DNA of 62,376 nt, taken from positions 116,869-179,244 of the forward strand of contig NZ_BBPO01000005.1 in NCBI RefSeq assembly GCF_000787815.1. The letters run 5' to 3'. The notes beneath the pieces are model-generated. The model had not been told where the DNA came from. It searched no databases and saw nothing but the letters and a program-made list of their open reading frames with translations. The translations under genes were made by a program, and so were the position numbers. Each line of letters starts with the position of its first letter. Within the stretch, counting starts at the first letter, position 1. Shown here piece after piece: positions 4,520-48,344 of this stretch. The DNA comes from Streptacidiphilus neutrinimicus. Its GTDB lineage: Bacteria; Actinomycetota; Actinomycetes; Streptomycetales; Streptomycetaceae.

Positions 4520-4520
4520 G

Positions 4521-26909: not shown

Positions 26910-29681
26910 ATGGGCAGATTCGGCCACTTCTGGGTGCGGGGCAGCCCCGCGCGGCCGGCCTCGCCCAACCGAGGGGTGCACCGGCGTCGGGGATGGAGCG
27001 TCGCGGGCCAGGCGTTCGTGTGGCAGCTGACGGTCCTGCTGCTGCTCGTCGTGGCCGCGACGATCGCCCTGGCGATCAAGACCACGCACGACGCCCAGTC
27101 CGACGCCCGCGACCGGGCCCTCGCCGTCGCGGAGGGATTCGCCCACGCCCCCGGCCTGGTGCAGGCCCTCCAGTCGCCCCATCCCACCGCGGAGCTCCAA
27201 CCGCTCACCCTGGAGGCCCAGAAGGGCTCCGGGGTCGACTTCGTCGACGTGCTCAGCAAGGACGGCATCCGCTACACCGATCCGGACCCGGGGCTGATCG
27301 GCCGGCGCGCGCAGGGCGACATCGCCCGGGCGGCCTCCGGGGAGTCCTTCACCGAGATCTTCAAGGGCTCCCCGCAGAACGCGGTCCGCGCGCTCGTCCC
27401 CGTCAGGGACGCCCACGGCAACGTGGTCGGGCTGGTGACCACGGGCGTCCAGACCACCGACGTCGCCGCCACCGCCAACCGCCAGCAGCCGCTGCTGATC
27501 GCGCTGGCGGGGGGAGCGCTGGTGCTCGCCGCCGGCGGGGCCCTGCTGGTCAGCAGGCGGTTGAGCCGCCAGACGCACGGCCTCGGGCCGGTCGAGATGA
27601 CCCGGATGTACGAGCACCACGACGCCGTGCTGCACAGCGTCCGCGAGGGGGTGCTGATCCTGGACGCCGACCAGCGTCTGGTGCTCGCCAACGACGAGGC
27701 GCAGCACCTGCTCGGCCTCTCCCCGGACGCGCACGGGCTGCCGCTGGACGAGCTGGGCCTGGAGCCGGGCATGGCCGAGCTGCTGGCCTGCGGGCGGACC
27801 GTCACCGACGAGGTGCACCCGGCCGGCGACCGCCTACTGGCCGTCAACCTCCGTCCCACGCAGATCCGCAGCGGTCCCGCCGGATACGTGGCGACCCTGC
27901 GCGACACCACCGAGCTGCTCACCGTCGCCGACCGGGCGGAGGAGGCCCGGGAGCGGCTGAAGCTGCTCTACGACGCGGGCATGCGCATCGGCACCACCCT
28001 CGACGTCGCCGCCACGGCGCAGGAGCTGGCCGACGTGGCGGTGCCCCGGCTGGCCGACTTCGTCAGCGTCGACCTCATCGAGGACCTGCTGACCGGCAGC
28101 GAGCCGGCCCCGGGCCCGGTCACCGGCGCGGTGCTGCGCCGGGTGGCCAACCGGTCCGTCCTCGAGGGCGCGCCGGAGGCCGTGGTCCAGGTCGGCGAGG
28201 CGGACTTCTACACCGACGCCTCGCCGCAGGCCCGCTGCCTGGCGACCGGCCGCTCCGAGCTGCACCAGGTCGAGAACCGGGCCATCGTGGCGTGGCTGGC
28301 CCAGGACCCCGCCCGGTCGGCGACGTGCCGGACGTACGGGATCCACTCGTGGATGGTGGTCCCGGTCATCGCCCGCGGCACGACCCTCGGCGTGGTGGAC
28401 TTCCTGCGCTCCCGGCATCCCGAACCGTTCTCCGCCGAGGACCTCGCCCTGGCCGAGGAGCTGGTCGCGCGGGCCGCCGTCTGCCTGGACAACGCCCACC
28501 GGTTCGCCCGCGAGCACACCGCCGCGCTCACCCTCCAGCACAGCCTGCTGCCCCGGCGGCTGCCGGAGCAGTCCGCGGTGGACGCGGCCTTCCGCTACCT
28601 GCCGGCCGACCCGCGGCTCGGCGTGGGCGGCGACTGGTTCGACGTGATCCCGCTGTCCGGCGCGCGGGTGGCGCTGGTCATCGGCGACGTGGTCGGTCAC
28701 GGCCTCCAGGCCTCCGCGACCATGGGCCAGCTGCGCTCCGCCGTGCGAACCCTCTCCGACGCCGACCTCCCGCCCGACGAGCTGCTCACCCACCTCGACG
28801 ACCTCGTCATCCGGCTCGCCGCCGACACCGACACCGACACCGCGACCGGCGCGGAGCGCACCCCCGTCGCCGACGTGGGGGCGACCTGCCTCTACGCCGT
28901 CTACGACCCCGTCTCGGGCCGCTGCTCCCTGGCCCGCGCCGGGCACCCGCCGCCCGCGGTGGCCCGTCCCGACGGCACCACCACCGTCCTGGACCTGCCC
29001 GCCGGTCCCCCGCTCGGCCTCGGCGGGCTCCCCTTCGAGGCGGCCGAGACGGTCCTGCCCGAGGGCAGCCTGCTCGCCCTCTACACCGACGGCCTGATCG
29101 AGAACCGGCAGCGCGCGGTCGACGCCGGGCTCGACGCCCTGCAGCAGTCACTGACGGCGCCGGACGGCTCGCTGGACGCGCTGTGCGACCGGATCGTCAC
29201 CGCGCTGCTGCCGGAACGGCCCGCGGACGACGCCGCACTGCTGGTCGCCCGGATGCGGCGGCTGGACGCCGACCGGGTCGCGACCTGGGACGTGCCCGCG
29301 GATCCGGCGGCGGTCGCCGGGCTGCGGGCGGAGGCGAACCGCAGGCTCGCGGAGTGGAGCCTGGAGGAGGCCGGGTTCGTCACCGAGCTGGTCCTCAGCG
29401 AGCTGGTCACCAACGCCATCCGCTACGGCCGCGAGCCCATCCAGCTGCGGCTGATCCACCCCCATCCCCTCACCGGGCCTGGCGGCGCGCCCATCCGCAC
29501 GCTGATCTGCGAGGTCTCCGACGGCAGCGGCACCGCCCCCCACCTCCGCCGCGCCCGCACCTTCGACGAGGGCGGCCGCGGCCTCCTCCTCGTCGCCCAG
29601 CTCACCCAGCGCTGGGGCACCCGCCCGACCGCCAACGGCAAGACCATCTGGTGCGAACAGACCCTCCTCCCGGACGCCTGA
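26910..29681 (+). CDS. Membrane sensor phosphatase: Cache-PAS-GAF-PP2C(SpoIIE)-HATPase
   Basis: 923 aa. An N-terminal helix (VWQLTVLLLLVVAATIALA), an extracellular CitA/DcuS-like sensor (VDFVDVLSKDGIRYTDPDPGLIGRR), a second helix, a PAS domain (~240-340), a GAF domain (~350-540), and a SpoIIE-type PP2C phosphatase with metal-site motifs GGDWFDVIPL, VIGDVVGHG and DDAALLVARM. The C-terminus is an RsbW-like ATPase (ELVLSELVTNAIRYG ... DEGGRGLLLVAQL). One chain therefore holds both anti-sigma-antagonist phosphatase and anti-sigma kinase modules. It is the first of two adjacent PP2C genes. Confidence 0.9.
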   Translation: MGRFGHFWVRGSPARPASPNRGVHRRRGWSVAGQAFVWQLTVLLLLVVAATIALAIKTTHDAQSDARDRALAVAEGFAHAPGLVQALQSPHPTAELQPLTLEAQKGSGVDFVDVLSKDGIRYTDPDPGLIGRRAQGDIARAASGESFTEIFKGSPQNAVRALVPVRDAHGNVVGLVTTGVQTTDVAATANRQQPLLIALAGGALVLAAGGALLVSRRLSRQTHGLGPVEMTRMYEHHDAVLHSVREGVLILDADQRLVLANDEAQHLLGLSPDAHGLPLDELGLEPGMAELLACGRTVTDEVHPAGDRLLAVNLRPTQIRSGPAGYVATLRDTTELLTVADRAEEARERLKLLYDAGMRIGTTLDVAATAQELADVAVPRLADFVSVDLIEDLLTGSEPAPGPVTGAVLRRVANRSVLEGAPEAVVQVGEADFYTDASPQARCLATGRSELHQVENRAIVAWLAQDPARSATCRTYGIHSWMVVPVIARGTTLGVVDFLRSRHPEPFSAEDLALAEELVARAAVCLDNAHRFAREHTAALTLQHSLLPRRLPEQSAVDAAFRYLPADPRLGVGGDWFDVIPLSGARVALVIGDVVGHGLQASATMGQLRSAVRTLSDADLPPDELLTHLDDLVIRLAADTDTDTATGAERTPVADVGATCLYAVYDPVSGRCSLARAGHPPPAVARPDGTTTVLDLPAGPPLGLGGLPFEAAETVLPEGSLLALYTDGLIENRQRAVDAGLDALQQSLTAPDGSLDALCDRIVTALLPERPADDAALLVARMRRLDADRVATWDVPADPAAVAGLRAEANRRLAEWSLEEAGFVTELVLSELVTNAIRYGREPIQLRLIHPHPLTGPGGAPIRTLICEVSDGSGTAPHLRRARTFDEGGRGLLLVAQLTQRWGTRPTANGKTIWCEQTLLPDA

Positions 29682-29796: not shown

Positions 29797-31869
29797 ATGG
29801 GAGCCGCGAACAGGAGCCGGCAGGAGCCGGACCCGTCGCTGGAGCCGGGCGGGCTGCTGGACGTGCTCGGCGTCGCGGCGATCGTGCTGAGCGCCGAGGG
29901 GCGGATCGCCCTGTGGAGCCCGCAGGCCGAGGCCCTGTTCGGCTACTCCGCAGCCGAGGCGCTGGGGCGGCCGGCCGCCCGCGTGCTGGTCGACGAGCAG
30001 CACGTCGCCTGGGTGCTGTCCTGGTTCGCCGGCATCATGTCCCGGGGCCGCGCCTGGGCGGGCGTCTTCCCGGTCCGCCACAAGGACGGGTCCACGCGGC
30101 TCACGGAGTTCCGCAACATGCGCCTCGAGGACGGGCAGGGACGCCACTACGCGCTGCTGCTCGCCTCCGACCAGGCCACGCTGCGGCGCCTGGAACGCGA
30201 TCTGGCGCTGTCGCTGCGCCTGGTCGAGCAGTCGCCCATCGGGCTCGCCGCCGTCGGCACCGACCTGCGCTACATCCTGGTGAACCCGGCGCTGGAGCGC
30301 ATCAACGGCATCTCCGCGGTGCACCAGCTGGGGCACACGGTCGGCGAGGCGCTGCCGTTCCTGGACGCGCACGGGATCGAGTCGGCGATGCGCACCGTGC
30401 TGGAGAGCGGGGCTCCGCTGCTGGACCAGCTCACCGTCGGCCGGACCCCGGCGAAGCCGGGGAGCGAGCGCGCGTGGTCGGTGTCCTACTACCGCCTGGA
30501 CGACCCGGGCGGCCGCGTCGTCGGCGTGGCCACCTCGATCGTCGACGTGACCGAGCAGCACCGCTCGGAGGTCGCCGCCGCGGCGGCCCGCCGCCGGCTC
30601 ACCGTGATCGCCGACGCCTCCGAGCGCATCGGCACCACCCTCGACCTCGACGTCACCGCGCGCGAGCTCGCCGACGTGCTGGTGCCCGAGTTCGCCGACT
30701 TCGCCGCGGTCGACGTGCTGGACTCGGTGCTCTCCGACAGCACCGCGCGGACCGGCGACGGCAGCCCGGCCGTGTTCCGGGCTCTGGCGATCAAGACCGC
30801 CTACCGGACCCTCGCCGAGGCCGCCGACCCGGTCGGCGAGATCGCCCGGTACGACGCCAGCCGCCTGGTCACCCGCAGCGTCCGCAAGGGTCGGCCGCTG
30901 CTCGTCGCCCACGTCACCGACGCCGACCTGCCGCGGATCGCCCGCGACGAGGCCGCGGCGGAGCTGCTGAAGCAGTCCGGCATCCACTCCTACATGGTTC
31001 TGCCGCTGCGCGCCCGCGGCCAGGTCCTGGGCGCGCTCGACCTGGTCCGCGCCCGCAACCCGCACCCGTTCACCGACGACGACGTGCTGCTCGCGACCGA
31101 GCTGGCCGCCCGCGCGGCGGTCTGCATCGACAACGCGCGCTGGTACCAGAGCCAGCGCCACGCGGCGCTGGCGCTGCAGCGGCACCTCCTGCCCACGCGT
31201 CCCACCCAGCCGCCCGGCCTGGAGGTCGCCTACCGGTACCAGCCGGCGGGCAGCGTGGTCGAGATCGGCGGCGACTGGTTCGACGTCATCGCCCTGGCGG
31301 GAGACAAGACCGCCCTGGTCGTCGGCGACGTCATGGGCAGCGGCATCAACGCGGCCGCGACCATGGGCCAACTGCGCACCGCGGCCCGCACCCTGGCCCG
31401 CCTGGACCTGGACCCGGCGACGGTGCTCACGCACCTTGACGGCATCGCCGGCGGCCTCGACGAGACCATCGCCACCTGCGTCTACGCCGTCTACGACCCG
31501 CACCGCGGCAGCTGCCGCATCGCCTGCGCCGGCCACCTGCCCCCGGTCCACACCCGCCACGGCCACGCCCCGCGCCTGCTGGATCTCCCCACCGGCGTCC
31601 CCCTCGGCGTCGGCGGCGCCTCCTTCGAGGACGTCCGCCTGGACCTCGGGGAGGGCGACGAACTCCTCCTCTACACCGACGGACTGGTCGAGACCCGCGA
31701 CCACCCCATCGACACCCGCCTCCAGGCCCTCACCGACCTCCTCAACCGCGACCGCCCCTCCCTCGAAGCCACTTGCGACCTCCTCCTCGACGCGCTCCAC
31801 CACCACGACGGCACCGACGACGTCGCCCTCCTGCTCGCCCGCACCCACCGCCTGCGCCCCGCCTGCTAG
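29797..31869 (+). CDS. PAS-PAS-GAF-PP2C (SpoIIE) phosphatase
   Basis: 690-aa cytosolic RsbU-like phosphatase. Two PAS domains (about 15-130, with LWSPQAEALFGYSAAEALG, and 145-255, with YILVNPALERINGISAVHQLG) are followed by a GAF domain (~265-450, GTTLDLDVTARELADVLVPEFADF) and a PP2C domain (GGDWFDVIALAG, VVGDVMGSG, TDDVALLLAR). ATG 29797 follows GGAGGGAGG. It has no C-terminal ATPase domain, unlike its upstream neighbour. The GAF-PP2C halves are alike, which suggests duplication. Target is probably an anti-sigma antagonist not encoded here. Confidence 0.9.
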   Translation: MGAANRSRQEPDPSLEPGGLLDVLGVAAIVLSAEGRIALWSPQAEALFGYSAAEALGRPAARVLVDEQHVAWVLSWFAGIMSRGRAWAGVFPVRHKDGSTRLTEFRNMRLEDGQGRHYALLLASDQATLRRLERDLALSLRLVEQSPIGLAAVGTDLRYILVNPALERINGISAVHQLGHTVGEALPFLDAHGIESAMRTVLESGAPLLDQLTVGRTPAKPGSERAWSVSYYRLDDPGGRVVGVATSIVDVTEQHRSEVAAAAARRRLTVIADASERIGTTLDLDVTARELADVLVPEFADFAAVDVLDSVLSDSTARTGDGSPAVFRALAIKTAYRTLAEAADPVGEIARYDASRLVTRSVRKGRPLLVAHVTDADLPRIARDEAAAELLKQSGIHSYMVLPLRARGQVLGALDLVRARNPHPFTDDDVLLATELAARAAVCIDNARWYQSQRHAALALQRHLLPTRPTQPPGLEVAYRYQPAGSVVEIGGDWFDVIALAGDKTALVVGDVMGSGINAAATMGQLRTAARTLARLDLDPATVLTHLDGIAGGLDETIATCVYAVYDPHRGSCRIACAGHLPPVHTRHGHAPRLLDLPTGVPLGVGGASFEDVRLDLGEGDELLLYTDGLVETRDHPIDTRLQALTDLLNRDRPSLEATCDLLLDALHHHDGTDDVALLLARTHRLRPAC

Positions 31870-31925: not shown

Positions 31926-32354
31926 GTGCAGCTATCCGAGCGGGATCTAGCGTTCCTTGCCGAACACCACGCCGCCGCCATGGTCACCGTCGCGCCCGAC
32001 GGGATTCCGAAGACGGCGCGGGTGGGCGTCGTGCTGGTGGACGGGCGGTTGTGGAGCAGCGGGACCAGGGACCGGGTGCGGACCGCGCGGCTGCGGCAGG
32101 ATCCGCGCTGTACCGTCTTCGTCTTCAGCGACTCCTACCGCTGGCTGACGCTGGAGACCACGGTGACGATCCTGGAGGGCCCCGACGTTCCGGAGCAGAG
32201 CGTGCGCCTGTTCCGGGAGATGCAGGGCCGCCCCGCCGGCGCGCTCAGCTGGTTCGGCGGCGAGCTCGACGAGGCGGCGTTCCGTCAGCGGATGGTGGAC
32301 GAGGGCCGGTTGATCTACGAGTTCACCGTGCACCGGACCTACGGAACGGGCTGA
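31926..32354 (+). CDS. PPOX-class F420-dependent oxidoreductase-like protein
   Basis: 142-aa split beta-barrel flavin/deazaflavin-binding protein. Landmarks are FLAEHHAAAMVTVAPDGIPKTARVGVVLVDGRLW at the N-terminus, GTRDRVRTARLRQDPRCTVFV in the middle, WLTLETTVTIL, and a C-terminal YEFTVHRTYGTG. This is the TIGR03618-type family, which binds F420, FMN or heme. The GTG at 31926 appears leaderless. Its last 32 bases overlap the convergent unknown gene's end. Confidence 0.85.
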   Translation: MQLSERDLAFLAEHHAAAMVTVAPDGIPKTARVGVVLVDGRLWSSGTRDRVRTARLRQDPRCTVFVFSDSYRWLTLETTVTILEGPDVPEQSVRLFREMQGRPAGALSWFGGELDEAAFRQRMVDEGRLIYEFTVHRTYGTG

Positions 32355-33822
32355 CGCCCGCGAACAGCGGGGTCTCGCGCCGCTGCGTGCCCCGCAGCCG
32401 CAGCGCCCAGCTGACCAGCGCGTGGTTCAGCATGTAGAGCCGGTGCTCCTCGCGGCCCCCCTCCGAGAGCCGGCCGACGACCCATTCGACCGGCGTGGCT
32501 CCGCCGTAGCCGGGCCTCGGGGAGAACAGCAGGTCGGAGCGGCCGATCTCGGCCAGGACGTTGAGCGCGTAGGCGAACGGGTAGGGCCGGTTGGTCCGGT
32601 CGTCGTCGGTGCGGTCCAGGTCGGGGAAGGCGTCCGCCCACCGGTTCAGCAGCGGCTCGCCGACCAGGTCCATGCGGCCGGTGAACATCGCGGTCTGCAC
32701 GAGGTAGGCGTAGGAGATGCCGCGCAGGAAGTAGTCGGCGCCGGGGTCGATGCGCTCCCCCTGGCCCACGACGTCCTCGACGAAGGCGTCCAGATCCGGC
32801 ACCTGGTCCCGCAGCCGGCCCAGGTTGTGCAGCGCGACCAGGTAGTAGAGGCCCATGTGGGTCCGCTCGACCGGGGTGAGCGCGGCCATCAGCTCGGCGG
32901 CCTCGGCGAGCCGGTCCCGGCCGTGGCTCAGGTACGTCTCGGGCCGCTCGGTCATGGCGACCGCGTTGAGCATGGTGAGCAGTGGGTAGATGCGGACGAA
33001 GGCGTCCGACATCGGCTGGGGGAAGGCGGGGCGCAGGCTCGGGCCGTCGGCGTGGTCCAGGTGGGAGAGGACCTCTCGCAGGCGGTCCCGGCCGCCGTCG
33101 TCGGTGATGAGCCGCTCGTGGCCGAGCAGCGAGACGACGGACAGCAGCATCGAGCCGCCGCGGCCGCGGAAGAAGGGCGCGGGGACCTGCTCCAGCAGGT
33201 CCAGCGCCTCGCGCACCCGGTTCCGCGGCCCGGAGACCAGCCGGTCCCCGAGGCCCAGCTGACCGGTCGCCAGGAAGACCGCCGTGCAGGCGGACAGGCG
33301 CTCGTAGTGGCCGTGGCGTCCCGCGTTCTCGTCCCTGGCGCGGTCGGGCTCGATCCGGTCCACCATGTCCAGCAGCTCGGCAGGCAGGTCCGTCTCGTCG
33401 TTGACCAGCAGCGAGCGGGGGAGGCCGAGTTTGGCGACGGCGTCCGCCAGGAGGCACCCGGCCATGACCCGGAAGTAGGGGTTCTCCTCGGCGCGCAGAG
33501 CGGCGAGGACGGGGCCCAACTCCTCGGGCTCGGCACGGCGGTACGGACCGCGTGACGGGTGCACCGTCGTCAGCACGAAGTCGGCCAGCAGCGAGGAGAA
33601 CCGGGTGTACGAGCCGGCGCCCGCGCCCTGGGCGTCGAGCAGCCGGAAGACGTGCCGGATCCGCCCGGCGGCCTCGGGGTCGTAGGCGACGGGGTGCTGG
33701 CCCAGGCCGATGCCGCGGACCATGCGGCTCCAGGGCGTGGCGATCACGCGGGTCTCGGTCGTCAGCTCGTCCAGACCGTGCACCGGGACCGGGAGAGGGA
33801 GGGGGAACGAGACGGTGGTCAT
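32323..33822 (-). CDS. Unknown helical protein partnered with the AT-kinase gene
   Basis: 499 aa, not recognised. No signal peptide or membrane helix. The sequence is predicted to be mostly helical, with Leu/Ala-rich and Asp/Arg-rich amphipathic segments such as LLPLLTMLNAVAM-like repeats. Tyr/His-containing patches occur (HMGLYYLVALHNLGRL, GADYFLRGISYAYLVQTAMFTGRMDLVG, PYPFAYALNVLAEIG), suggestive of an alpha/alpha toroid of helical pairs. ATG 33822 follows GGAAGGAG and lies 26 bp after the AT-kinase stop, so the two form an operon. Possible roles are a cyclase-like or scaffold partner; none can be supported. Confidence 0.7.
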   Translation of the reverse strand: MTTVSFPLPLPVPVHGLDELTTETRVIATPWSRMVRGIGLGQHPVAYDPEAAGRIRHVFRLLDAQGAGAGSYTRFSSLLADFVLTTVHPSRGPYRRAEPEELGPVLAALRAEENPYFRVMAGCLLADAVAKLGLPRSLLVNDETDLPAELLDMVDRIEPDRARDENAGRHGHYERLSACTAVFLATGQLGLGDRLVSGPRNRVREALDLLEQVPAPFFRGRGGSMLLSVVSLLGHERLITDDGGRDRLREVLSHLDHADGPSLRPAFPQPMSDAFVRIYPLLTMLNAVAMTERPETYLSHGRDRLAEAAELMAALTPVERTHMGLYYLVALHNLGRLRDQVPDLDAFVEDVVGQGERIDPGADYFLRGISYAYLVQTAMFTGRMDLVGEPLLNRWADAFPDLDRTDDDRTNRPYPFAYALNVLAEIGRSDLLFSPRPGYGGATPVEWVVGRLSEGGREEHRLYMLNHALVSWALRLRGTQRRETPLFAGVSPFRRSGAR

Positions 33823-33848
33823 GCGGGGCTCCTTCCGGGGACGGCTGC

Positions 33849-36800
33849 TCAGGCACGCAGGTGGGGAAGCGGGGGAACGTCCAGGCCGAGGAACTCGGTA
33901 CGGGTGCCGTCGAGCATCTGCAGGGCCCAGTTCAGCCACTTGACGCCCTCGCAGTAGATCGCGACCGGGCGGCGCTGGCTGCGGTAGCCGTCCACCAGCG
34001 TGCCGTCGAGCTCCTTCTGGAAGTGGAACGGCGGCATGGCGGTGAAGTGCTGTCCCATCATGAAGACGAAGCGGACCAGCCAGTAGGGGTCCTGCTCCAG
34101 GAAGGGCGAGTCGGGGTCGTCCAGACCCAGGGCGGCCGTCATCACGGGCGCGAAGTGGTCCTCCAGACCCTGCGGGGCCCCGGGGTGCAGGGCGCCGCCG
34201 TTCGCCGTCACATCCCGGACCCGGTAAGCGCGCTGGTACGGGTTCCCCTCCAGGAAGGCGATGTCGACGCACGGGGTCCGGCCCGCGGTGGCGTCGACGG
34301 CCAGCGTGAACTGCTCGAAGTGGATCTCGTCGTAGTGGCCGAGGGAGTTGTGCCACGGCTTGTTGTCGTACATCGCGTCGTCGCGGGTGTCCGCGCCCTC
34401 GCTCTTGAAGCCGATCGCGCGCGGGTCCAGGAAGCGAATGCCCAGGGTCTCGGCGGTGACGGCGTCCAGGGCGGCGTCGATCTGTTCCCGAGGTGCGCCC
34501 GACTCGATCACCTGTTGGGCGCGCAGCAGCGGTCCGCTGTCGGTGATCTTGATGTTCTCGGTGTTGGTGTCGCCCATGACCAGCGAGTGGAAGCGCGGCT
34601 CCAGGATCCGGGCGTAGTCGGGGTTGCCGCGGAACCGACGCAGCAGCGCGCCGGAGTTCAGGTAGGGGACGCCGTTCACGACGATCCGCTCGGTGTCCAG
34701 CAGATGTGTGTCGAAGGTCCGCGGCGCGGTGCGACGGCACAGGTCGAGCCGGTCCTCGATCTTCCGGAAGTAGGAGACGTCCAGCGTCTCGCCCGGGGCG
34801 GGCACCCGGCCCACGCTGTGCACCCGCTCGTTGAGCACCCGGATGACCTGCTCGTACAACCGGGCGACCAGGGCCGGCGGCGGGGAGTGCCGCTCGACGA
34901 ACCGGCTGACCTCCTCGCCCGCCACATAGCTCATCTCGTAGAGCACCTCGCGATCCACCGCCCGGTCCACCGCTCGGTCGGCGCGGCGTCGTTGCGGCGG
35001 AACCGGGACCTCGCGCTCGGAGACGTCGAAGACCTCGGGGAAGTAGGGGCGCACCGAGGCGGGGAGCGCCCGCAGGTACTCGGCCTGCTTCTTCGCCTTG
35101 GCGAACGGGGGCAGCATCACGCCGGTGCCCTCCGGGTTCCACCGCGCGGTGGTCAGCGCCTCGCTGAGGATCTTGCGGACGGTGATCCGCTCCTCGCCGC
35201 GCTTGCGGACGAAGACGGTCATCGACTCGCTGCCGCCCCTGCCGAAGCTGACCACCGACTCGTCGATGCCGATGTAGGCGTAGACGGTGCTGGAGAGCAC
35301 GCGGCGGCTGCGCGCGACCTCCAGCACGCGCGCGTTCTCCCGGGTCAGCGCCAGGGCGCAGGCGCTCTCGAGCCGGTCCAGCGCGGGGTTGCGCCGCCTG
35401 CGCCAGATCTCGGCAGGCTCGCCCACGCGGACCAGGTCAGCGTGGTAAGGGTCGGCGTCCACGCCGTCCGCCGTCAGCCGCGAACCGAGCGAGATCACCT
35501 GGCAGTTGCCGCCCAGCTGGATCCGGGCCCCGCCGTCGTACGCACCGGGGATCCGGTCAGCGAGCACGGTGCGCGTGGTCTCCGCCAGCTCCCTGAGCGA
35601 CTGCACCGGCACGCCCGCGGGGGAGACCAGCGGGATCTGCGGCTCGGCGAGCCCGCCCAGCATCCGCTCCAGCGCCTCGGGCCGTGGCCCGTCGACGAAC
35701 AGGCCGATGACCGCGGCCAGCGGGACTGCGCCGGAGACGGCGAGCGCCGCCAGCCAGCCCAGCGGGTCGCCGCCCGCCAGATAGTGGTCGTGCTGCGCGA
35801 ACAGCGCGGGCCGGTGCTGCTGCAGCGCGTCGAACAGCAGGTACTGGTAGAGCATCCGGCGGCCCTGCGGCGGCAGCTCGTCCTCCTGCAGGCCGAGCTC
35901 GCGCCGGAGCGCGTCGCGGATGCGCATCGCCGCGGGCTGCTCGACCTGCAGCAGCCGGATCCGGTCGGCCAGCGCGTCCTCGTCCAGCCCGACCGGGGCG
36001 TCGAAGTGCACGACCAGCACCTCGGGGCGGGTGGTCCGCGCGGTCCGGTGCACGGAGCCTCCGGCCCGGGTGAGGACGTCGAGTTCGAGCTCGGCCCGGC
36101 CGAGCCGCTCCGGGTCCGCCCCGGTCAGCCGTTTTTTCAGCCGCGCCCGGGCGACGAGCTCGCCGCCCGCGGCGTCGACGTGCTCGCGGTGGTTCCAGGT
36201 GTGCTGCAGCAGTTCGAGCAGCCGGTAGAACGCCCCGGTACCGTTGCGGTCCGGGCGCAGCATCTGCACGGTGACGACCCGTTCGAGCGCGCGGGCGGCG
36301 TACTCCTCGGCGAAGGAGCTGCGTGCGGCGCGGCGCAGCAGCTCACGGGCGAGTTCGAGGTCCACGTCCGCCGGCGGCTCGTCGCGGGTGTAGAGGTGTT
36401 CCAGCCGGGCCAGCACCCGCCCGGTCGCGGTGACGGCGCCCAGCACGTGGTCGTCGTCCTCGCGGCGGGCGGTGTAGTCCGTGACAGGGACCTCGACGGC
36501 GTTGTCCCGCAGCAGTCGCAGTGACTTGCCGCCCGGTCCCAACTCCAGCACCAGATCCAGGTCGAGGCCGTCCAGCGTCTCGCAGGTCTCCCGGGACGCC
36601 ATCACCCGGTCCGTCATGGCCAGCACGCCCCGGCGCACCTCCGCCGCGGTGGTGAGCAGCGACATGTCGTGGTTGGACACCACCGGCACGCGGGGCTGCC
36701 GGAAGCGGATCCCGGCGGAGTCGAGGAACGCGTCCAGCGCCTGCCGGGCCGGTCGCATCCGTGCGGAGTGGGCCAGGAAGACCGTGGGGTCCTTGAGCTC

Positions 36801-37592
36801 GCCGACGGTCACCTCGGGGAAGTCGGCGACGAAGCGGTCGAACCGCGCCCGGAAGCCCGCGCGGACGTACAGGTTGGCCTGGGTCCGCGCGTACGCCTTG
36901 TGCGGTTCGACGTCGGTGAGCGGGAAGCGCGCGGCGACGGCGGCGAGGACCGCCTCCAGAGTCTCGGCGTCCGGCGCGGTGACGGCCAGCACGTGGCAGG
37001 GTTCCGGGACCAGCGGGGCAGCCAGCACGGACGCGGGCAGGTGGCGGGAGAGGTCCCGGGCGATCGGCTCGTCGGCGTCGAAGCCGCCCGCGGCCAGCAG
37101 CATCAGCGGGGTGAAGACGCGGGCGATCCGGACGCCGTCGGAGACGGTCAGCGCCCCGCCGGCCACCGCGGCGGTCAGCACGCCGAAGCTCTCGCCCGCG
37201 TAGGCGACGACGTCGGCGGGCGTGCCGGACTCGGCGATCCGGTGCCGCAGGCAGGCGTCCAGGACCAGGCTGTGCACCAGCAGCGCCGCCCCGATGAAGC
37301 CCTGACGCTCCAGCATGCCCCGCCGGGGCCCGTTGGACGGCATGAGCAGCAGGTCGGGCCGCGCGGCGATGCCGAGGGCGTCGGCAGCCTCCCGGTAGAC
37401 GTCCCCGACCTCGGACACGTCGCAGTCCAGCAGGGAGCGGTCGAGGTTCCGGTAGAACGAGCGGCTGCCCAGGCCGGGGAAGAATCCGGCGATGCGCGCC
37501 CGGTGCTTCGCACCGAGGGCGTGGTCGGCCGGCAGTGCGAGTTCGACGGCCCCCCGAGGAGCCGGGACGGCGCGGAAAAGGGAGCGGGACAC
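33849..37592 (-). CDS. Acyltransferase fused to APH-like kinase domain, 1247 aa
   Basis: Residues ~30-390 are a malonyl-CoA:ACP-type acyltransferase domain. The nucleophile elbow is GESFG (Ser135) instead of GHSxG, and His275 is in AHSARM. PVVSNHD (~303) and LELGPGGKSL (~349) are the usual late AT motifs. Residues ~390-830 have no recognised domain; a segment near 735 reads RIQLGGNCQVISLG. The C-terminus (~840-1247) looks like an aminoglycoside-phosphotransferase-type kinase: VRK lysine, catalytic loop MGDTNTENIKI (Asp1008, Asn1013) and FLDPR (Asp1056). The GTG at 37592 has GAGAGGG upstream. No ACP or ketosynthase is adjacent. Product unknown. Confidence 0.75.
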   Translation of the reverse strand: MSRSLFRAVPAPRGAVELALPADHALGAKHRARIAGFFPGLGSRSFYRNLDRSLLDCDVSEVGDVYREAADALGIAARPDLLLMPSNGPRRGMLERQGFIGAALLVHSLVLDACLRHRIAESGTPADVVAYAGESFGVLTAAVAGGALTVSDGVRIARVFTPLMLLAAGGFDADEPIARDLSRHLPASVLAAPLVPEPCHVLAVTAPDAETLEAVLAAVAARFPLTDVEPHKAYARTQANLYVRAGFRARFDRFVADFPEVTVGELKDPTVFLAHSARMRPARQALDAFLDSAGIRFRQPRVPVVSNHDMSLLTTAAEVRRGVLAMTDRVMASRETCETLDGLDLDLVLELGPGGKSLRLLRDNAVEVPVTDYTARREDDDHVLGAVTATGRVLARLEHLYTRDEPPADVDLELARELLRRAARSSFAEEYAARALERVVTVQMLRPDRNGTGAFYRLLELLQHTWNHREHVDAAGGELVARARLKKRLTGADPERLGRAELELDVLTRAGGSVHRTARTTRPEVLVVHFDAPVGLDEDALADRIRLLQVEQPAAMRIRDALRRELGLQEDELPPQGRRMLYQYLLFDALQQHRPALFAQHDHYLAGGDPLGWLAALAVSGAVPLAAVIGLFVDGPRPEALERMLGGLAEPQIPLVSPAGVPVQSLRELAETTRTVLADRIPGAYDGGARIQLGGNCQVISLGSRLTADGVDADPYHADLVRVGEPAEIWRRRRNPALDRLESACALALTRENARVLEVARSRRVLSSTVYAYIGIDESVVSFGRGGSESMTVFVRKRGEERITVRKILSEALTTARWNPEGTGVMLPPFAKAKKQAEYLRALPASVRPYFPEVFDVSEREVPVPPQRRRADRAVDRAVDREVLYEMSYVAGEEVSRFVERHSPPPALVARLYEQVIRVLNERVHSVGRVPAPGETLDVSYFRKIEDRLDLCRRTAPRTFDTHLLDTERIVVNGVPYLNSGALLRRFRGNPDYARILEPRFHSLVMGDTNTENIKITDSGPLLRAQQVIESGAPREQIDAALDAVTAETLGIRFLDPRAIGFKSEGADTRDDAMYDNKPWHNSLGHYDEIHFEQFTLAVDATAGRTPCVDIAFLEGNPYQRAYRVRDVTANGGALHPGAPQGLEDHFAPVMTAALGLDDPDSPFLEQDPYWLVRFVFMMGQHFTAMPPFHFQKELDGTLVDGYRSQRRPVAIYCEGVKWLNWALQMLDGTRTEFLGLDVPPLPHLRA

Positions 37593-37778
37593 GGAAATCG
37601 CCCTCTCAGGATTGTCCTCTGCGGAATCGGAAAACTCTCTTCGAGAATTCTCCGGAGAGGCTGACGTGCCTTCAAGCGATCTTGGTTCAGGGTTCTGTCA
37701 TGCCAGTTCAGGGGCGTGTGAACGTTTCTTCCGTGGAAGGTCAGAAAAATGTCAGCAGCGCATCCTGCCATAAGAAAT

Positions 37779-37825
37779 GAGCCGGGGCCGGAGAACTTTC
37801 GTCCTCCGGCCCCGGCTCCTTTTTT
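37779..37825. terminator. Strong rho-independent terminator, probably bidirectional
   Basis: Perfect 15-bp stem (GAGCCGGGGCCGGAG and its complement) with a 10-base loop. On the plus strand it is followed by six T; on the minus strand by ATTTCTT. It lies 35 bp past the stop of the MFS gene and isolates it from the AT-kinase operon. Confidence 0.88.
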
Positions 37826-37859
37826 GGGGGAGTGGGACAGGCAGTTCTTGGATATTCCC

Positions 37860-39065
37860 TTACGAGACCCCGGCCTCGGTCATGTGCGCCGGCAGCGCCT
37901 CGTCGGACGCCGAGGGCGACGGGGCCGCGCCGCGGCCGAGCGATCCGCCGGCGACGACGACCAGCCCGGCGAGCGCGAGCCCCGCGCCCACCCAGAGCGG
38001 GGCCACGTAGCCCTCGCCGGCGGCCAGCGCCAGACCGCCGAGCCAGGCCCCCAGCGCGTTGCCGACGTTGAAGGCCGCGATGTTCGCGCCGGAGGCCATG
38101 GTCGGCGCGTCCGAGGCGTACGTCATGGTGCGCACCTGCAGACCGGGCGCCGAGGCGAGGCCGACGGCCCCCATCAGCAGCAGCGCGACGACGGTGGCGA
38201 CCTTGTTGTGCGCGGTGAGCGCGAACGCCGCCATCACCACGGCCAGCAGTGCCATGATGCCGATCAGCGCGGCGTTCACCGACTTGTCCGCCGCCTTGCC
38301 GCCGACGAAGTTCCCGACGAAGGTGCCGACGCCGAAGAGGATCAGCAGCCACGGCACCGTCGTGGTGGCGAAGCCGCTCACCTTGGTGAGGGTGAAGGCG
38401 ATGTAGGTGTAGCCGCCGATGACCCCGCCGAAGGCCAGGATGCTGAGGACGACGGAGACCCAGACCTGGCCGCGCCGGAAGACGGCGAGCTCGCTGCGCA
38501 GGTTCGGCCGGGCGGCCTCGGTCTGGCGCGGCACCAGCACCTGGATGCCGATCAGTGTGACGACGCCGATGACGGTGATCGCCCAGAAGGTGGAGCGCCA
38601 GCCGGCCTGCTGGCCGAGGAAGGTGCCCAGCGGCACGCCGAGCACGTTGGCCACGGTCAGGCCGCCGAACATCAGCGCGATGGCGCTGCCCTTCTTGTTG
38701 TCGGCGACCATGTCGGAAGCGACCACCGCGCCGACGCTGAAGAACGCGCCGTGGCAGAGCGCCGCCACGATCCGGCCGAAGAGCAGCACGTCGTAGCTGC
38801 CGGCCACGGCCGAGACCAGGTTGCCGACGATGAACAGCGCCATCAGGCCGACCAGGACCTTCTTGCGGTCCAGACGGGAGACCGCGGCGGTCAGCAGCAG
38901 GGCGCCGATCGCGACGCTGAGCGCATAGCCCGAGATCAGGTACCCGGCTACCGACTCGGAGACGTGGAAGTCGCCTGCCACCTCCGGCAGCAGACCCACG
39001 ATCCCGAACTCGGTGAGGCCGATGCCGAAGCCTCCCAGGGCCAGGGCGATGAGCCCGATAGGCAT
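37860..39065 (-). CDS. MFS drug-type exporter (AraJ/PbuE-like)
   Basis: 401-aa 12-helix major facilitator transporter of the DHA1 type. Motif A-like sequence SRLDRKKVLVG follows helix 2, and the N-terminus PIGLIALALGGFGIGLTEFGIVGLLPEVA is typical of AraJ/purine-exporter relatives. ATG 39065 follows GGAGGGA. It is divergent from the ArsR regulator, with two repeated operator-like sites between them, so the ArsR protein is the likely repressor. It ends in a strong terminator. Substrate unknown. Confidence 0.9.
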   Translation of the reverse strand: MPIGLIALALGGFGIGLTEFGIVGLLPEVAGDFHVSESVAGYLISGYALSVAIGALLLTAAVSRLDRKKVLVGLMALFIVGNLVSAVAGSYDVLLFGRIVAALCHGAFFSVGAVVASDMVADNKKGSAIALMFGGLTVANVLGVPLGTFLGQQAGWRSTFWAITVIGVVTLIGIQVLVPRQTEAARPNLRSELAVFRRGQVWVSVVLSILAFGGVIGGYTYIAFTLTKVSGFATTTVPWLLILFGVGTFVGNFVGGKAADKSVNAALIGIMALLAVVMAAFALTAHNKVATVVALLLMGAVGLASAPGLQVRTMTYASDAPTMASGANIAAFNVGNALGAWLGGLALAAGEGYVAPLWVGAGLALAGLVVVAGGSLGRGAAPSPSASDEALPAHMTEAGVS

Positions 39066-39132
39066 GTCGAATCCCTCCAGTGCCAAGGCGAGCGGTGCGG
39101 GACCGCGCCGTTGTGAACCCCAACGCATCGAA

Positions 39133-39186
39133 GCATCGCATAACGTCGATATGTTCTGTCAAGCGGACGCATCGCTTATCATCGAT
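39133..39186. promoter_or_regulatory. Two direct repeats with dyad symmetry, probable ArsR operators
   Basis: GCATCGCATAACGTCGAT (39133-39150) and GCATCGCTTATCATCGAT (39169-39186) match at most positions and are spaced 36 bp start to start. Each has an ATCG...CGAT dyad. They lie between the divergent MFS and ArsR genes, 68 bp and 36 bp from the two start codons. Confidence 0.65.
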
Positions 39187-39221
39187 GGATCGGTGGAGGC
39201 CCCGCACCGCCAGGAAGGCTC

Positions 39222-39641
39222 ATGACCACACACGACACATCCGCGCCGGACACAGCCCCGCCGAACACGGCCCCGACGTACGCAGCCTCGACGGAGAGCC
39301 TCGCGTCGCTGCTGGAGGCGCTCAAGGCGCTGGCCAATCCGGTGAGGCTGCAGGTGCTCCAGTGGCTGCGCGAGCCGGAGCGGAACTTCCCGGTCGAGCC
39401 GGCCGTCACCGATCCCCGGGCGGTCGGCGTCTGCGTCAGTCACATCCAGGCCAAGAGCGGCCTGGCCCAGTCGACCGTCTCCGCGTACATGGCCGTCCTG
39501 GAGCGCGCCGGACTCGTGCGCTCCACCCGGGTCGGCAAATGGACCCACTACCGGCGCGACGAGGAGCGCATCGCCGCGCTGGTCGAGGAGTTGAGAAGCG
39601 CCGTCGGCGGGGACGCCCACCTGGCGGACAGCCTTCTGTGA
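39222..39641 (+). CDS. ArsR-family transcriptional regulator
   Basis: 139 aa. A Thr/Pro-rich N-terminal ~25 residues precede the winged helix: SLLEALKALANPVRLQVLQWLREPE, recognition helix AQSTVSAYMAVLERAGLVRSTRVGKWTHYRRDEERI. A Cys-containing insert (VGVCVSHIQAKSGL) lies between helices. The canonical ELCVCDL metal box is absent, so it is probably a non-metal or thiol-responsive member. Divergent from the MFS exporter it likely represses. It ends three bases before the convergent TetR gene. Confidence 0.88.
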   Translation: MTTHDTSAPDTAPPNTAPTYAASTESLASLLEALKALANPVRLQVLQWLREPERNFPVEPAVTDPRAVGVCVSHIQAKSGLAQSTVSAYMAVLERAGLVRSTRVGKWTHYRRDEERIAALVEELRSAVGGDAHLADSLL

Positions 39642-39644
39642 AGG

Positions 39645-40307
39645 TCACACCGGCGCCGCCTGCAGATCCGGGGCGGCGTCGGCGTCCTCCGTCCCGCCCT
39701 CGGCCGCCGGCGTGTCGGTGCACAGTCGGGGCATGATGCCCGGCGCGGCGAGCCCCGGCAGCAGCAGACGCCACAGCGCGGAGACCCGGGCCGGCAGATC
39801 CTGGCGGTTGCTGTAGACCTGCGACATCACCTGCAGCCCGGTGAACGAGCCGACGACGGTCGAGGCGACCTCGCGCAGATCCATCCCGGGCAGCAGTTCC
39901 CCCTGCCGGTCGGCCTGTCGCAGCAGGTGCTCGATCACCGCGATCGCCTCGTCGTAGGGGGCCCGCGCCGACTGCGCGAAAGAGGACTGCTCGACGGCCA
40001 GGCGCACGCTCGCGCGCAGCACGGTGTCCCGTTGCAGGCGCCGGGCGAACTCCAGCGACATGTCGATGACCGCCTGGAGCTTGACCGTCCGGACCGGCGG
40101 CACCAGCGCCTCGCTCTGCGCCTCCACCAGCGCCGCGGCGATGGCCTCCTTGGAGGGGAAGTGGTGGTACAGCGCGCCGCGGGTGAGCCCGGCTCGGCTG
40201 AGGATCTCGTTGGTGCTGGCGGCGTCGTACCCGCGCTCGCCGAACACCTCGGCGGCCGCCTCGAGGATCGAGCGTCTCGATCGGATTCCGCGCTCTTGCT
40301 GGGCCAT
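39645..40307 (-). CDS. Gamma-butyrolactone receptor-like TetR regulator (ArpA/ScbR type)
   Basis: 220 aa. N-terminal TetR domain with GIRSRRSILEAAAEVFGERGYDAASTNEILSRAGLTRGALYHHFPSKEAIAAAL, the sequence typical of ArpA/ScbR/BarA receptors. The ligand domain has LRASVRLAVEQSSF, also characteristic. The C-terminal ~20 residues are an Ala/Asp-rich tail. An ARE-like palindrome lies 33-56 bp upstream of its ATG, so it is autoregulated. Together with the AfsA-like gene it would form a quorum-type switch. Whether it binds a true ligand or is a pseudo-receptor cannot be decided from sequence alone. Confidence 0.88.
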   Translation of the reverse strand: MAQQERGIRSRRSILEAAAEVFGERGYDAASTNEILSRAGLTRGALYHHFPSKEAIAAALVEAQSEALVPPVRTVKLQAVIDMSLEFARRLQRDTVLRASVRLAVEQSSFAQSARAPYDEAIAVIEHLLRQADRQGELLPGMDLREVASTVVGSFTGLQVMSQVYSNRQDLPARVSALWRLLLPGLAAPGIMPRLCTDTPAAEGGTEDADAAPDLQAAPV

Positions 40308-40339: not shown

Positions 40340-40363
40340 CCAAACAGACTTGCCTGTATGTTA
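40340..40363. promoter_or_regulatory. ARE-like operator upstream of the receptor gene
   Basis: Imperfect dyad AAACAGAC-TT-GCCTGTATGTT, matching the autoregulatory elements bound by ArpA/ScbR-type receptors. It overlaps the stop codon of the response regulator and lies just upstream of the receptor start at 40307. Confidence 0.72.
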
Positions 40364-41074
40364 CCGCGCATCGCCGATCCGGAAGCCCACCCCACGCACC
40401 GTCACGATCCAGCTCCCCGAGCCCAGTTTGCTGCGCAGGCTGCTGACGTGGGTGTCGATCGTGCGTCCCTGGTGCGACCACTCGTCGTCCCAGACCTGCC
40501 GGAGCAGCTGGCGACGCGAGAGCGTGGTGCCGGGCTGCGAGGCCAGCAGGTGCAGCAAGTCGAACTCCTTGGGCGTCAGCGGGATCGGCCGGCCGCCGAG
40601 GGCGATCTCCCTGCTGCGGGCGTCGATGCGCAGCGTCCCGTGCGTGATGACCCGCGCCGGGGGCGGTGCGGAGGGCTGGGCCCGGCGCATCACGGCGTCG
40701 ATCCGGGCCAGCAGTTCGCGCAGGCCGTAGGGCTTGACCACGTAGTCGTCCGATCCGGCCTGCAGGCCGAGCACGCGGTCGAGTTCGGTCCCGCGCGCGG
40801 TCACGATGATGATCGGGGTGTCGCCCTCGGCCCTGAGTCTGCGGCACACCTCCAGCCCGTCCAGGTCGGGCAGGTCGAGGTCCAGCAGGACCAGGTCGAC
40901 GCTCGGGAGCAGTTGCAGCGCGAGGCCGCCGGTGCCCGCGCTCCTGGCGGCGTGGCCGTGTCTGCGCAGCTCGTGCACCAGGCACTCGGCGGCGTCCGGA
41001 TCGTTCTCGACGACCAGCACCCGAAGCCCCTGCGTGTCCGCCGGGCGCTCGGGCTCCTCGGTAACGGTCTGCAA
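40361..41074 (-). CDS. Atypical OmpR-type response regulator, JadR1-like
   Basis: 237 aa. The receiver domain (residues ~18-130) has the phosphorylation-site Asp65, Thr92 and Lys114, but the acidic pair is Glu23-Asn24, so one Mg-binding acid is missing. The C-terminal winged helix (~145-235) has PLTPKEFDLLHLLASQPGTTLSRRQLL and TIDTHVSSLRSKLG. No sensor kinase is adjacent. Such regulators beside butyrolactone receptors resemble JadR1, which senses a product rather than phosphorylation. It starts with TTG 41074 after GGGGAGGGG, and an ARE-like site lies ~60-80 bp upstream. Confidence 0.85.
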   Translation of the reverse strand: MQTVTEEPERPADTQGLRVLVVENDPDAAECLVHELRRHGHAARSAGTGGLALQLLPSVDLVLLDLDLPDLDGLEVCRRLRAEGDTPIIIVTARGTELDRVLGLQAGSDDYVVKPYGLRELLARIDAVMRRAQPSAPPPARVITHGTLRIDARSREIALGGRPIPLTPKEFDLLHLLASQPGTTLSRRQLLRQVWDDEWSHQGRTIDTHVSSLRSKLGSGSWIVTVRGVGFRIGDAR

Positions 41075-41329: not shown

Positions 41330-41367
41330 GATCGTGTACGGGTTTTCCGTTGGGGAGGGAGCCGACC

Positions 41368-42417
41368 GTGCTGGGTCTCGTGCATGATCGAGGGAACGAC
41401 GTGGTGGTGGGCCGGGCGCCGGCGCTCACGGCGACCGTGCCCCGCGAGTACGTCCACCGTGCCTCCGTGGCAGAGGTGTTGCTCACCGGCTGGGACGACG
41501 CCCCGGGCGGCGAGCCCGACTCCTTCGTCGTGCGGGCCCAATGGCCCAGGAGACACGCCCTGTTCGCCCCCGCCCGCGGCCAGCAGGACCCGATGCTCCT
41601 GGCCGAGACGGTGCGCCAGGCCGGACTGCTGCTCTCGCACGCCGAGTACCAGGTGCCGTTCGGCCATCAGTTCCTCATGTGGGAACTGTCGTTCGCGGCG
41701 GTCCCGGACGCGTTCGCGACCGGCCCGGCGCCGACGGACGTCGAACTGCGCGTCGTCTGCCATGACATCGCGCGTCGTGGACGCGGCATCGCGGCGATGC
41801 GGTACGAGGTCACCATGCTGCGCGCCGGACGGCCCGTCGCCGCCGGCGGCGCGCGGTTCAGCTGCACCAGCGGCGCCGTGCAGCGGCGGATGCGCGCCGG
41901 GCGTCCCACCGTCAACGGACGCGCCCTGCCCGCCGCCGCCGACCCGGCGCTGGTGGGCCGCGCCCTGCCGCAGGACGTGCTGCTCGGCGCTGCGCGGGGC
42001 CAGGCCACGGCCCACGCCGCCGCCGACGGTCGCGACGCCGCCGCCGACGCCGACGGTCGTTGGGAGCTGCGGGTCGACACCGACCACCCGATCTTCTTCG
42101 ACCACCCGGTGGACCACGTGCCCGGCATGCTGCTGCTCGAAGCCGCCCGGCAGGCCGCCCGCGCCGCCACCCGGCAGCCGGACGCGGTGCTGCTGGGCGC
42201 CGCGAGCTCGTTCCTGCGCTACGCGGAACTGGACGCCCCGTGCTGGATCGAGGCCCGGATCGAGCCCCGTGTCGGACCCCGTGTCGGACCCCGGGGCGAG
42301 GCCCTGGCCGAGCCCTCGGCCGACCGCGCCTGCTCCGTCCGGGTCGCGGTGAGCGCCACCCAGCACGGTGAGCAGGTCTTCCGCGCCGACCTGCTGCTCG
42401 GCCGTCCCACCGACTGA
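41368..42417 (+). CDS. AfsA-like gamma-butyrolactone synthase
   Basis: 349 aa with two hotdog-fold AfsA repeats: EYVHRASVAEVLLTGWD with GQQDPMLLAETVRQAGLLLSHAEYQVPFGHQFLMW, and FFDHPVDHVPGMLLLEAARQAARAA. These enzymes join a beta-ketoacyl thioester to dihydroxyacetone phosphate. The start is GTG 41368, with GGGGAGGGAG at good spacing; the upstream TTG at 41350 overlaps that site. It is divergent from the response regulator and is followed 27 bp later by the epimerase, as in jadW1-jadW2 type loci. Confidence 0.88.
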   Translation: MLGLVHDRGNDVVVGRAPALTATVPREYVHRASVAEVLLTGWDDAPGGEPDSFVVRAQWPRRHALFAPARGQQDPMLLAETVRQAGLLLSHAEYQVPFGHQFLMWELSFAAVPDAFATGPAPTDVELRVVCHDIARRGRGIAAMRYEVTMLRAGRPVAAGGARFSCTSGAVQRRMRAGRPTVNGRALPAAADPALVGRALPQDVLLGAARGQATAHAAADGRDAAADADGRWELRVDTDHPIFFDHPVDHVPGMLLLEAARQAARAATRQPDAVLLGAASSFLRYAELDAPCWIEARIEPRVGPRVGPRGEALAEPSADRACSVRVAVSATQHGEQVFRADLLLGRPTD

Positions 42418-47749: not shown

Positions 47750-47798
47750 GAGATCAGCCTGAACCCACCCACCCGGGGGAACAACTCGGCGGAGCCGC

Positions 47799-48344
47799 TC
47801 AGTCCGCTTCGGGGCCCGCCTCGGCGTCCGGGCGCGGTTCGAGGATCTCGCTGCCGTACATCTCACCCAGCGGGTCCGCGATCAGTTCGATGCGCGCGCC
47901 GTCGGGGTCGCGGAAGTAGAGCGAGACGTCGCTGTGCACCTCGTGGGCGACGCCCGCGTCGGCGACCCGCTGCCGGAGTCTTCGCCAGCGTCCGGGCTCG
48001 ACCGAGATGGCGATGTGGTGCAAGCCGCCCAGCACCTCGGCGTAGGGGCCCACGTCCAGGCCGGGGAAGTCGAAGAAGGCGAGCAGGTTCTCGTTGCCGA
48101 GGTCGAAGAAGAAGTGCGAGGACCCCGGGTAGTCGCGGTTTTCGATCAGTTCGGTGAGGGGAAACTCCAGGAGGTCCTGGTAGAAGCGGATGGTCCGCTC
48201 CACGTCGCTGCTGATCAGCGCCGTGTGGTGGATACCGCGTGCGGAGGATGCGGGCCGGCGCCCGCGCGGGAGGAGATGGGCGGCGCGCAGCCGCTCGCGT
48301 TCGGCGGCCCGGGCGGCCACGGTCGCGGGATCGGGGGCGTTCAT
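47799..48344 (-). CDS. VOC/glyoxalase-family protein
   Basis: 181 aa. After a charged N-terminal helix, the vicinal oxygen chelate fold reads GIHHTALISSDVERTIRFYQDLLEFPLTELIENRDYPGSSHFFFDLGN. HHIAISVEPGRWRRLRQRV and a final VSLYFRDPDGARIELIADP follow. The metal-ligand His and Glu positions (HHTAL, IELIA) are present, so it may be an active dioxygenase or lyase. ATG 48344 is chosen; an upstream frame is unconvincing. Confidence 0.84.
   Translation of the reverse strand: MNAPDPATVAARAAERERLRAAHLLPRGRRPASSARGIHHTALISSDVERTIRFYQDLLEFPLTELIENRDYPGSSHFFFDLGNENLLAFFDFPGLDVGPYAEVLGGLHHIAISVEPGRWRRLRQRVADAGVAHEVHSDVSLYFRDPDGARIELIADPLGEMYGSEILEPRPDAEAGPEAD

Follow-up and report, generated by a model that had tools for sequence, protein, structure and literature searches.

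A predicted acyltransferase–kinase-like protein and its putative helical-repeat partner, encoded by a rare gene pair of Streptacidiphilus neutrinimicus

Introduction

In lanthionine synthetases a kinase phosphorylates serine or threonine residues of a peptide and LanC domains carry out the cyclisation, the zinc of LanC being held by two cysteines and one histidine. A kinase is linked to acyl chemistry in mammalian ACAD10 and ACAD11, where, according to excerpts of two reports (PMC12440821; PMC11342911), the kinase domain phosphorylates 4-hydroxyacyl-CoAs. Here we describe a pair of genes from Streptacidiphilus neutrinimicus, encoding a 1247-residue protein with an acyltransferase (AT) domain and a kinase-like domain and a 499-residue partner, that lies in a stretch of 62,376 nucleotides (contig NZ_BBPO01000005.1, positions 116,869 to 179,244) referred to as the window. 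As far as those excerpts go, ACAD10/11 offer the nearest described logic that we found for the pair, in that a kinase domain is linked to one that handles acyl groups; in the window an AT replaces the dehydrogenase and there is a separate, apparently helical partner. With LanKC and LanM proteins the pair would have in common a kinase that acts together with a toroidal set of helical hairpins, but its partner has no conserved cysteine or histidine and no precursor peptide was found near the core genes.

The separate parts resemble known, or probably known, things, whereas the combination of kinase-like protein and toroid-like partner, extended by an AT and a degenerate AT copy, is undescribed in the open-access literature searched. 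Searched for the AT–kinase fusion, for a neighbouring pathway and for an analogue, that literature yielded no account of the pair and, together with the records searched, no assigned product for any relative. The word acyltransferase is absent from the main text of PMC11429834.

Results

The gene pair

Both genes were found where the initial annotation had placed them, with the lengths given there. They and the parts of the long protein are as follows.

33849-37592, reverse strand: AT-kinase-like gene, 1247 aa; GC by codon position 0.759/0.472/0.947
36459-37496, reverse strand, residues ~33-378: AT domain ACYLTRANSFERASE; Ser135 in GESFG, His275, Phe160 at the arginine position
35958-36440, reverse strand, residues ~385-545: middle part 1, no domain recognised
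35493-35957, reverse strand, residues ~546-700 (aligned ~546-676): middle part 2, degenerate second AT; elbow GGDPLGW at 607-613, without serine
33852-35330, reverse strand, residues ~755-1247: kinase-like domain; K807, D1008, N1013, D1056
32323-33822, reverse strand: partner gene, 499 aa, ATG start; GC by codon position 0.748/0.478/0.962
37765-37832, no strand assigned: GC-rich, terminator-like hairpin between the AT-kinase gene and an upstream MFS transporter gene

Both genes are real, with a coding-type GC pattern and conserved relatives. An open reading frame (ORF) of 505 aa in another frame (32339-33856, reverse strand) was considered as the partner gene and rejected on its third-position GC of 0.478. 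The partner starts 26 bases downstream of the AT-kinase gene on the same strand, a gap that makes co-transcription plausible, and the pair probably has its own promoter because the hairpin separates it from the upstream MFS gene. The genome measures 8.4 Mb; by the AT-kinase gene, its nearest named relatives are Streptacidiphilus anmyonensis and S. melanogenes.

A core of kinase-like domain and partner

Relatives were collected in one scan of a species-genome collection with six exact peptide patterns, which gave 53 loci and is not a census. These span Actinomycetes, Enterobacteriaceae, Halomonas, Acetobacteraceae, Chromobacterium, cyanobacteria, Omnitrophota and a few others. With tblastn the kinase-like domain was detected in 53/53 loci, as against 50 for the partner, 44 for the AT and 42 for the middle region, and we take the kinase-like domain and the partner to be the core because both outnumber the AT. 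The nine loci without AT comprise seven from cyanobacteria and two from proteobacterial metagenome-assembled genomes, and eight of the nine have the partner; eight of them also form one branch of a tree built by a quick method (support 100), the ninth, L060, not being in that tree. To the question raised at the outset, whether the partner gene always follows, the answer is that it generally follows or lies beside, being present in 50 of the 53 loci and next to the AT-kinase gene in all 12 genomes of a family sample that have the latter. Of the three loci without it, L033 stops at a contig end, the genome of L042 has a partner elsewhere and that of L053, in the version analysed, shows none. The divergences of the kinase-like domain (mean identity 0.61 over 46 loci) and of the partner are correlated (r 0.88 over the same number of loci), and none of 2000 permutations gave as high a value.

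The pair is rare. Of 394 genomes sampled from the family, 12 encode an AT-kinase protein (E<=1e-60); the same 12 encode the partner (E<=1e-20), and two of them have a second, distant copy of it. Among 296 genomes of the phylum either protein was found in the window's own genome only (E<=1e-15), and among 194 cyanobacterial genomes there was a strong kinase-like match in the centre genome only. Eight further cyanobacterial genomes gave weak matches to the kinase profile; three of these were examined and rejected, as by eye they look like glutamate-cysteine ligases. Three plasmid records carry copies: two Streptomyces plasmids on which both genes are annotated, and a 12-kb Acinetobacter plasmid whose best-matching stretch corresponds to 63% of the long protein and has no annotated gene. 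The patchy spread points to horizontal transfer. On viral contigs, a search with one pattern found no relative of the partner.

The arrangement of the parts varies among the relatives, whose genes were called by a GC-frame caller and not taken from annotation, so that some starts will be wrong; the sequence P0003, used in some of the comparisons, itself includes ten codons ahead of the start. Acetobacteraceae and several actinomycetes have the kinase-like domain as a separate protein, the chain being split in front of it. In one Omnitrophota locus (L049) a single chain of more than 3000 aa holds the AT, the middle region, the kinase-like domain and two partner copies; a second (L035) is similar with the start of a third partner at its end, and a further one (L048) is truncated where its contig stops. 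L061 has the partner fused to the AT, and L041 has the AT and the kinase-like domain with no middle region detected by tblastn. In L036, L037, L057 and L067 the separate AT protein has 326-460 residues before the motif FFPGLGSR, which in the window protein lies near residue 38; no family was found for this N-terminal extension in Pfam or NCBIfam.

The kinase-like domain

Alignments left out the near-duplicates L001-L004, L060 and other low-coverage fragments, and the plasmid loci L062-L064; L052 was left out of alignment A1 (residues 375-1247) only. K807, D1008, N1013 and D1056 are invariant in all 51 aligned relatives, in the order in which they occur in kinases and with D-x4-N spacing, and we infer catalytic roles for them, with K807 as the beta-3 lysine and D1056 as the metal-binding aspartate. 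The catalytic-loop motif GDTNTEN and the later LDPR, to which the initial annotation had drawn attention, are present as claimed and conserved across these relatives: GDTNTEN is invariant, as is the D-P-R of LDPR, whose leucine is kept in 50. Order and spacing of the four residues are shared with APH-type kinases (PF01636), from which the domain differs in having Met-Gly-Asp for His-Gly-Asp, 43 residues from the asparagine to the second aspartate, an extra invariant stretch, YDNKPWHNS, and no significant profile match.

The partner protein

For the window partner nothing was listed by Pfam or NCBIfam. Its 51 aligned relatives matched 13 Pfam families, none of them in more than two members; SidE_PDE (E 2.5e-4) and GH88 (E 0.03), each in 1/51, were set aside as isolated. 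When the family profile was compared with itself an internal repeat appeared with a spacing of about 57 residues (E 6.8e-11), along with more off-diagonals. Five column-shuffled controls did no better than E 0.27, and the values for the kinase and AT profiles were 0.43 and 0.03. The sequence looks helical, and repeated hairpins of about 57 residues suggest an alpha/alpha toroid. No cysteine and no histidine occupies an invariant or nearly invariant column of the 51 sequences.

Stand-alone partners, L065:7054-9906 and L066:7100-9943, adjoin a gene of the acyl-CoA-dehydrogenase fold, an HsaA-like monooxygenase (NCBIfam E 9.8e-40 for L065, below that family's cut-off), and have no kinase-like gene beside them. 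From these copies, the partner may also work with another enzyme. When L013 and L016 are compared with L009, L010 and L011, the kinase-like domains are 79-84% identical and the partners just 51-56%, and the partner in L013 and L016 may have been swapped for a paralogue. L027 has two partner copies, 58% and 52% identical to that of the window.

The AT domain and its probable acyl donor

Pfam listed for the long protein only ClpB_D2-small (E 0.24), and PF00698 had no match on contig C180 at E<=0.001. NCBIfam gave mdcH (TIGR03131; E 6.7e-10) and fabD (TIGR00128; E 1.5e-6), both far below their curated cut-offs (38.9 against 297.9 bits and 27.9 against 260.9 bits, respectively), and a profile of 43 relatives matched malonyl transacylases in the PDB, down to E 3.4e-12. 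A malonyltransferase-like domain with Ser135 in GESFG and His275 is therefore in place as annotated, these two residues aligning with the catalytic serine and histidine of FabD and each being kept in 43/43 relatives. The reference alignment comprised three FabD-like proteins and one further acyltransferase, from the same and related genomes. All four references have the carboxylate-binding arginine 25 positions after the serine; it is lost in every one of the 43 family members, which have phenylalanine (40), leucine (2) or threonine (1) there. The residue before the nucleophile is glutamate in 43/43, and the glutamine position of PGQG is occupied by leucine in 39, isoleucine in one and methionine in one, with two gaps.

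The domain thus resembles FabD and MdcH in sequence across both halves and in its Ser-His catalytic pair, and differs from them in having GESFG for GHSxG, PGLG for PGQG and no equivalent of Arg117, and in continuing into a degenerate second copy and a kinase-like domain. Because the arginine for the malonyl carboxylate is lost throughout the family, malonyl is an unlikely donor, and the simplest reading is an active transferase for a non-malonyl acyl group. The unusual acyl donor that had been proposed from the variant elbow is accordingly probable, the loss of the arginine being better evidence for it than GESFG.

The middle region

The long protein had been described as having some 440 residues without a recognised domain between the AT and kinase-like domains. 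That description stands for residues ~385-545, which gave no match above noise in Pfam, NCBIfam or hhalign comparisons; an AfsA-like hotdog domain was tried there and rejected (score 12.9, against 19.1 for the best of 30 shuffles). It does not stand for about 130 residues further on, which are a degenerate second AT. With the family profile taken from residue ~531 onwards, hhalign aligned this part with the AT profile across the nucleophile elbow (score 39.9, E 4.4e-5), and a second, weaker alignment (25.3, E 0.008) lies in the order expected for the C-terminal half of an AT; the best of 60 column-shuffled controls reached 21.4, and this trimmed comparison was chosen after the likeness had been spotted by eye. 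A full-length comparison of the AT with the middle region aligned nothing but the overlap shared at their border and was discarded. Against the PDB, the middle-plus-kinase profile matched a Notch chain (E 0.092) and then malonyl transacylase chains (0.11 for 2qc3, 0.13), none significant alone; the transacylase matches, that to the FabD 2qc3 among them, fall on the same elbow. At the elbow nucleophile serine occurs in 0/42 sequences, and the glycine that closes the elbow is kept in 42/42.

Gene neighbourhood

The genes upstream of the pair in the window are these.

37860-39128, reverse strand: MFS transporter, 422 aa, upstream neighbour of the pair (Pfam MFS_1, 4.6e-46)
39222-39641, forward strand: ArsR-type regulator, divergent from the MFS gene (Pfam HTH_5, 1.1e-5); cluster c2, in 16/53 loci
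39645-40307, reverse strand: TetR-family regulator, autoregulator-receptor type by position; cluster c4, in 10/53 loci
40361-41074, reverse strand: response regulator with winged-helix output; cluster c3, in 13/53 loci
41350-42417, forward strand: AfsA-type gamma-butyrolactone synthase (PF03756, E 1.3e-44); cluster c5, in 9/53 loci
42445-43389, forward strand: NAD-dependent epimerase/reductase (Pfam), possibly a butyrolactone reductase from its place beside AfsA

The butyrolactone switch reported next door is thus borne out by the AfsA and TetR genes, and so is the statement that no acyl carrier protein (ACP), ketosynthase or non-ribosomal peptide synthetase gene is adjacent, none occurring among the 32 window proteins scanned with Pfam (20 of them at E 1e-5). 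No convincing palindromic autoregulator box was seen near the operon. The gap between the ArsR and MFS genes (39129-39221) holds two similar copies of a stretch starting GCATCGC, possibly operators of the ArsR-type regulator.

Across the relatives, 31/53 loci have a transporter-like gene, one with at least eight predicted membrane stretches, no more than three genes away from the core, and 25 of these 31 belong to the same MFS family as the window's; the count rests on crude hydropathy, with a background of 6.5% of 725 non-core genes, these genes included. An ACP gene directly follows the partner in L018, L027 and L039 and lies one gene further in L016 (4/53 in all), that of L027 being the one checked with Pfam. 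Downstream of the pair, L016:16292-23723 and L018:15371-23619 hold a type II polyketide-like set with ACP and several ketosynthases; Pfam supports two ketosynthases of L016, and small DsrE-like proteins were recognised by eye in these sets. Flavodoxin-fold, quinone-reductase-type genes occur in 6/53 loci (by Pfam for L029, by cluster for the rest), FAD-dependent monooxygenases on both Streptomyces plasmids, and genes of 3-amino-4-hydroxybenzoic acid (3,4-AHBA) type in L063 (annotated), L026 and L042 (by eye). These recurrent neighbours, like the HsaA-like monooxygenase beside the stand-alone partners, hint at aromatic substrates. A set of molybdenum-hydroxylase-like genes, assigned by eye and, for three genes, with Pfam, borders the pair in several cyanobacterial loci.

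Elsewhere in the window, two adjacent large genes of one sequence cluster (c17) occupy 1505-6785 on the reverse strand, the protein of 4521-6785 being an ABC transporter with a C39 peptidase domain of the kind used in peptide export. SpoIIE-type phosphatases with PAS/GAF sensor domains are encoded at 26910-29681, 29797-31869 and 45548-47866, and a collagenase (peptidase M9) with a PKD domain at 57569-59884.

Discussion

Our current working hypothesis, which we hold tentatively and at a little short of an even chance, is that the pair is a two-protein enzyme system of an uncharacterised specialised metabolism, carrying out biosynthetic acyl and phospho transfer. The toroid-like partner would hold a small molecule, a hydroxyl group of which the kinase-like domain would phosphorylate. 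The AT would take a monocarboxylic acyl group from CoA or ACP and either transfer it to that substrate or pass it to the kinase; the degenerate AT copy could be structural, or could hold a carrier or the substrate. The product may shed its phosphate by elimination or cyclisation in the partner and might then be exported by the neighbouring pump. That ATP is used, that the toroid is a working partner and that the AT feeds in an acyl group is what conservation and co-occurrence suggest. The pair may be self-contained, as initially proposed, but the transporter-like genes near the core in 31 loci and the ACP genes in four, two of these with ketosynthases, make that less certain. Several observations tell against the hypothesis: the partner is not adjacent in L042 or L053; some correlation between kinase and partner divergence is to be expected from shared descent by itself; 22/53 loci, some of them at a contig end, have no transporter-like gene in the three genes nearest the core; and ArsR- or LysR-type regulators together with an exporter would suit detoxification as well.

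The hypothesis leans on the C-terminal domain being a kinase, which in our judgement it probably is, with good though not high confidence. Several results count against that assignment. The window domain has no significant family in Pfam or NCBIfam, and its best PDB match is beta-sarcoglycan (E 1.1). The position of the alpha-C glutamate is occupied by E in 38, Q in 7, D in 4, R in one and Y in one of 51 sequences. In hhalign comparisons with proteins of the same genome (40 shuffles each), the domain scored 13.9 against six APH proteins, where shuffles reached 20.0, and 23.1 against four protein kinases, where they reached 25.3. It could then be another enzyme in which GDTNTEN and LDPR resemble kinase motifs by chance, the best Pfam match among the members being G5 (E 0.0012), found in 1/51 relatives and set aside as isolated. 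We consider such a coincidence unlikely in view of the four catalytic residues, each invariant in the aligned relatives and in order with the expected spacing; moreover, the hhalign alignments, weak and within shuffle noise as they are, still land on the expected motifs, and one member (L043) has a sub-threshold match to Pfam APH (E 0.022) over the stretch preceding the catalytic loop. If the domain is a kinase, a lanthionine-type reaction, with phosphorylation of peptide serine or threonine and cyclisation by the toroid, might be envisaged from the pairing of a kinase-like domain with a repeat-built partner, in a single chain in Omnitrophota. It is highly improbable here, given the absence of cysteine and histidine from the (nearly) invariant partner columns and of any recurrent peptide, chance-like pairs aside, from the short ORFs up to 1.5 kb away from the core, where the recurrent ones were the ArsR-type gene, its antisense frame and ACP genes.

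A more serious competitor, though still a doubtful one, is inducible detoxification, in which a toxic compound, perhaps an aromatic or quinone-like one, would be phosphorylated and acylated by the pair, alongside a regulated exporter. The ArsR-type gene divergent from the MFS gene, with its cluster in 16/53 loci, fits this, as do LysR-type neighbours recognised by eye in four enterobacterial loci and L044 (cluster c14), the quinone-reductase-type genes of six loci, EmrAB-like genes next to the Asaia copies (by eye) and the copy on the 12-kb Acinetobacter plasmid. We nevertheless prefer biosynthesis, in view of the acyltransferase and of the butyrolactone and ACP genes nearby: AfsA-type genes in nine loci and ACP genes in four suit it better, and a conserved AT with a degenerate second copy would be much machinery for resistance. 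The same ACP genes, the ketosynthases of L016 and L018 and the annotation of plasmid copies as ACP S-malonyltransferase could instead be read as signs of a stand-alone AT that serves an ACP in trans, as happens in certain polyketide pathways, the C-terminal domain being accessory or regulatory. This is very unlikely, since the kinase-like domain occurs without AT in nine loci, eight of these with the partner, the arginine for malonate is missing in 43/43 relatives and neither ACP nor ketosynthase was found in the 32 scanned window proteins.

Taking the biosynthetic hypothesis further, the pair could represent a new class of compact natural-product synthase, in which kinase and toroid phosphorylate a hydroxyl and then drive elimination or cyclisation to give an exported compound, while an AT and its dead copy, both added in some lineages, choose the acyl building block; taken jointly, these proposals are speculative and on balance we doubt them. 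The unit is present in actinobacteria, proteobacteria, cyanobacteria and Omnitrophota, and streptomycete units often adjoin gamma-butyrolactone and ArsR-type regulatory genes. Two families without a matching Pfam entry travel together, one of them strongly conserved across phyla, and the pair points to undescribed chemistry. Genome-mining tools may miss it, because on two plasmids the large protein bears the name ACP S-malonyltransferase although the family is without the malonyl-binding arginine. As the unit is so small, expression of two genes would suffice to test it directly.

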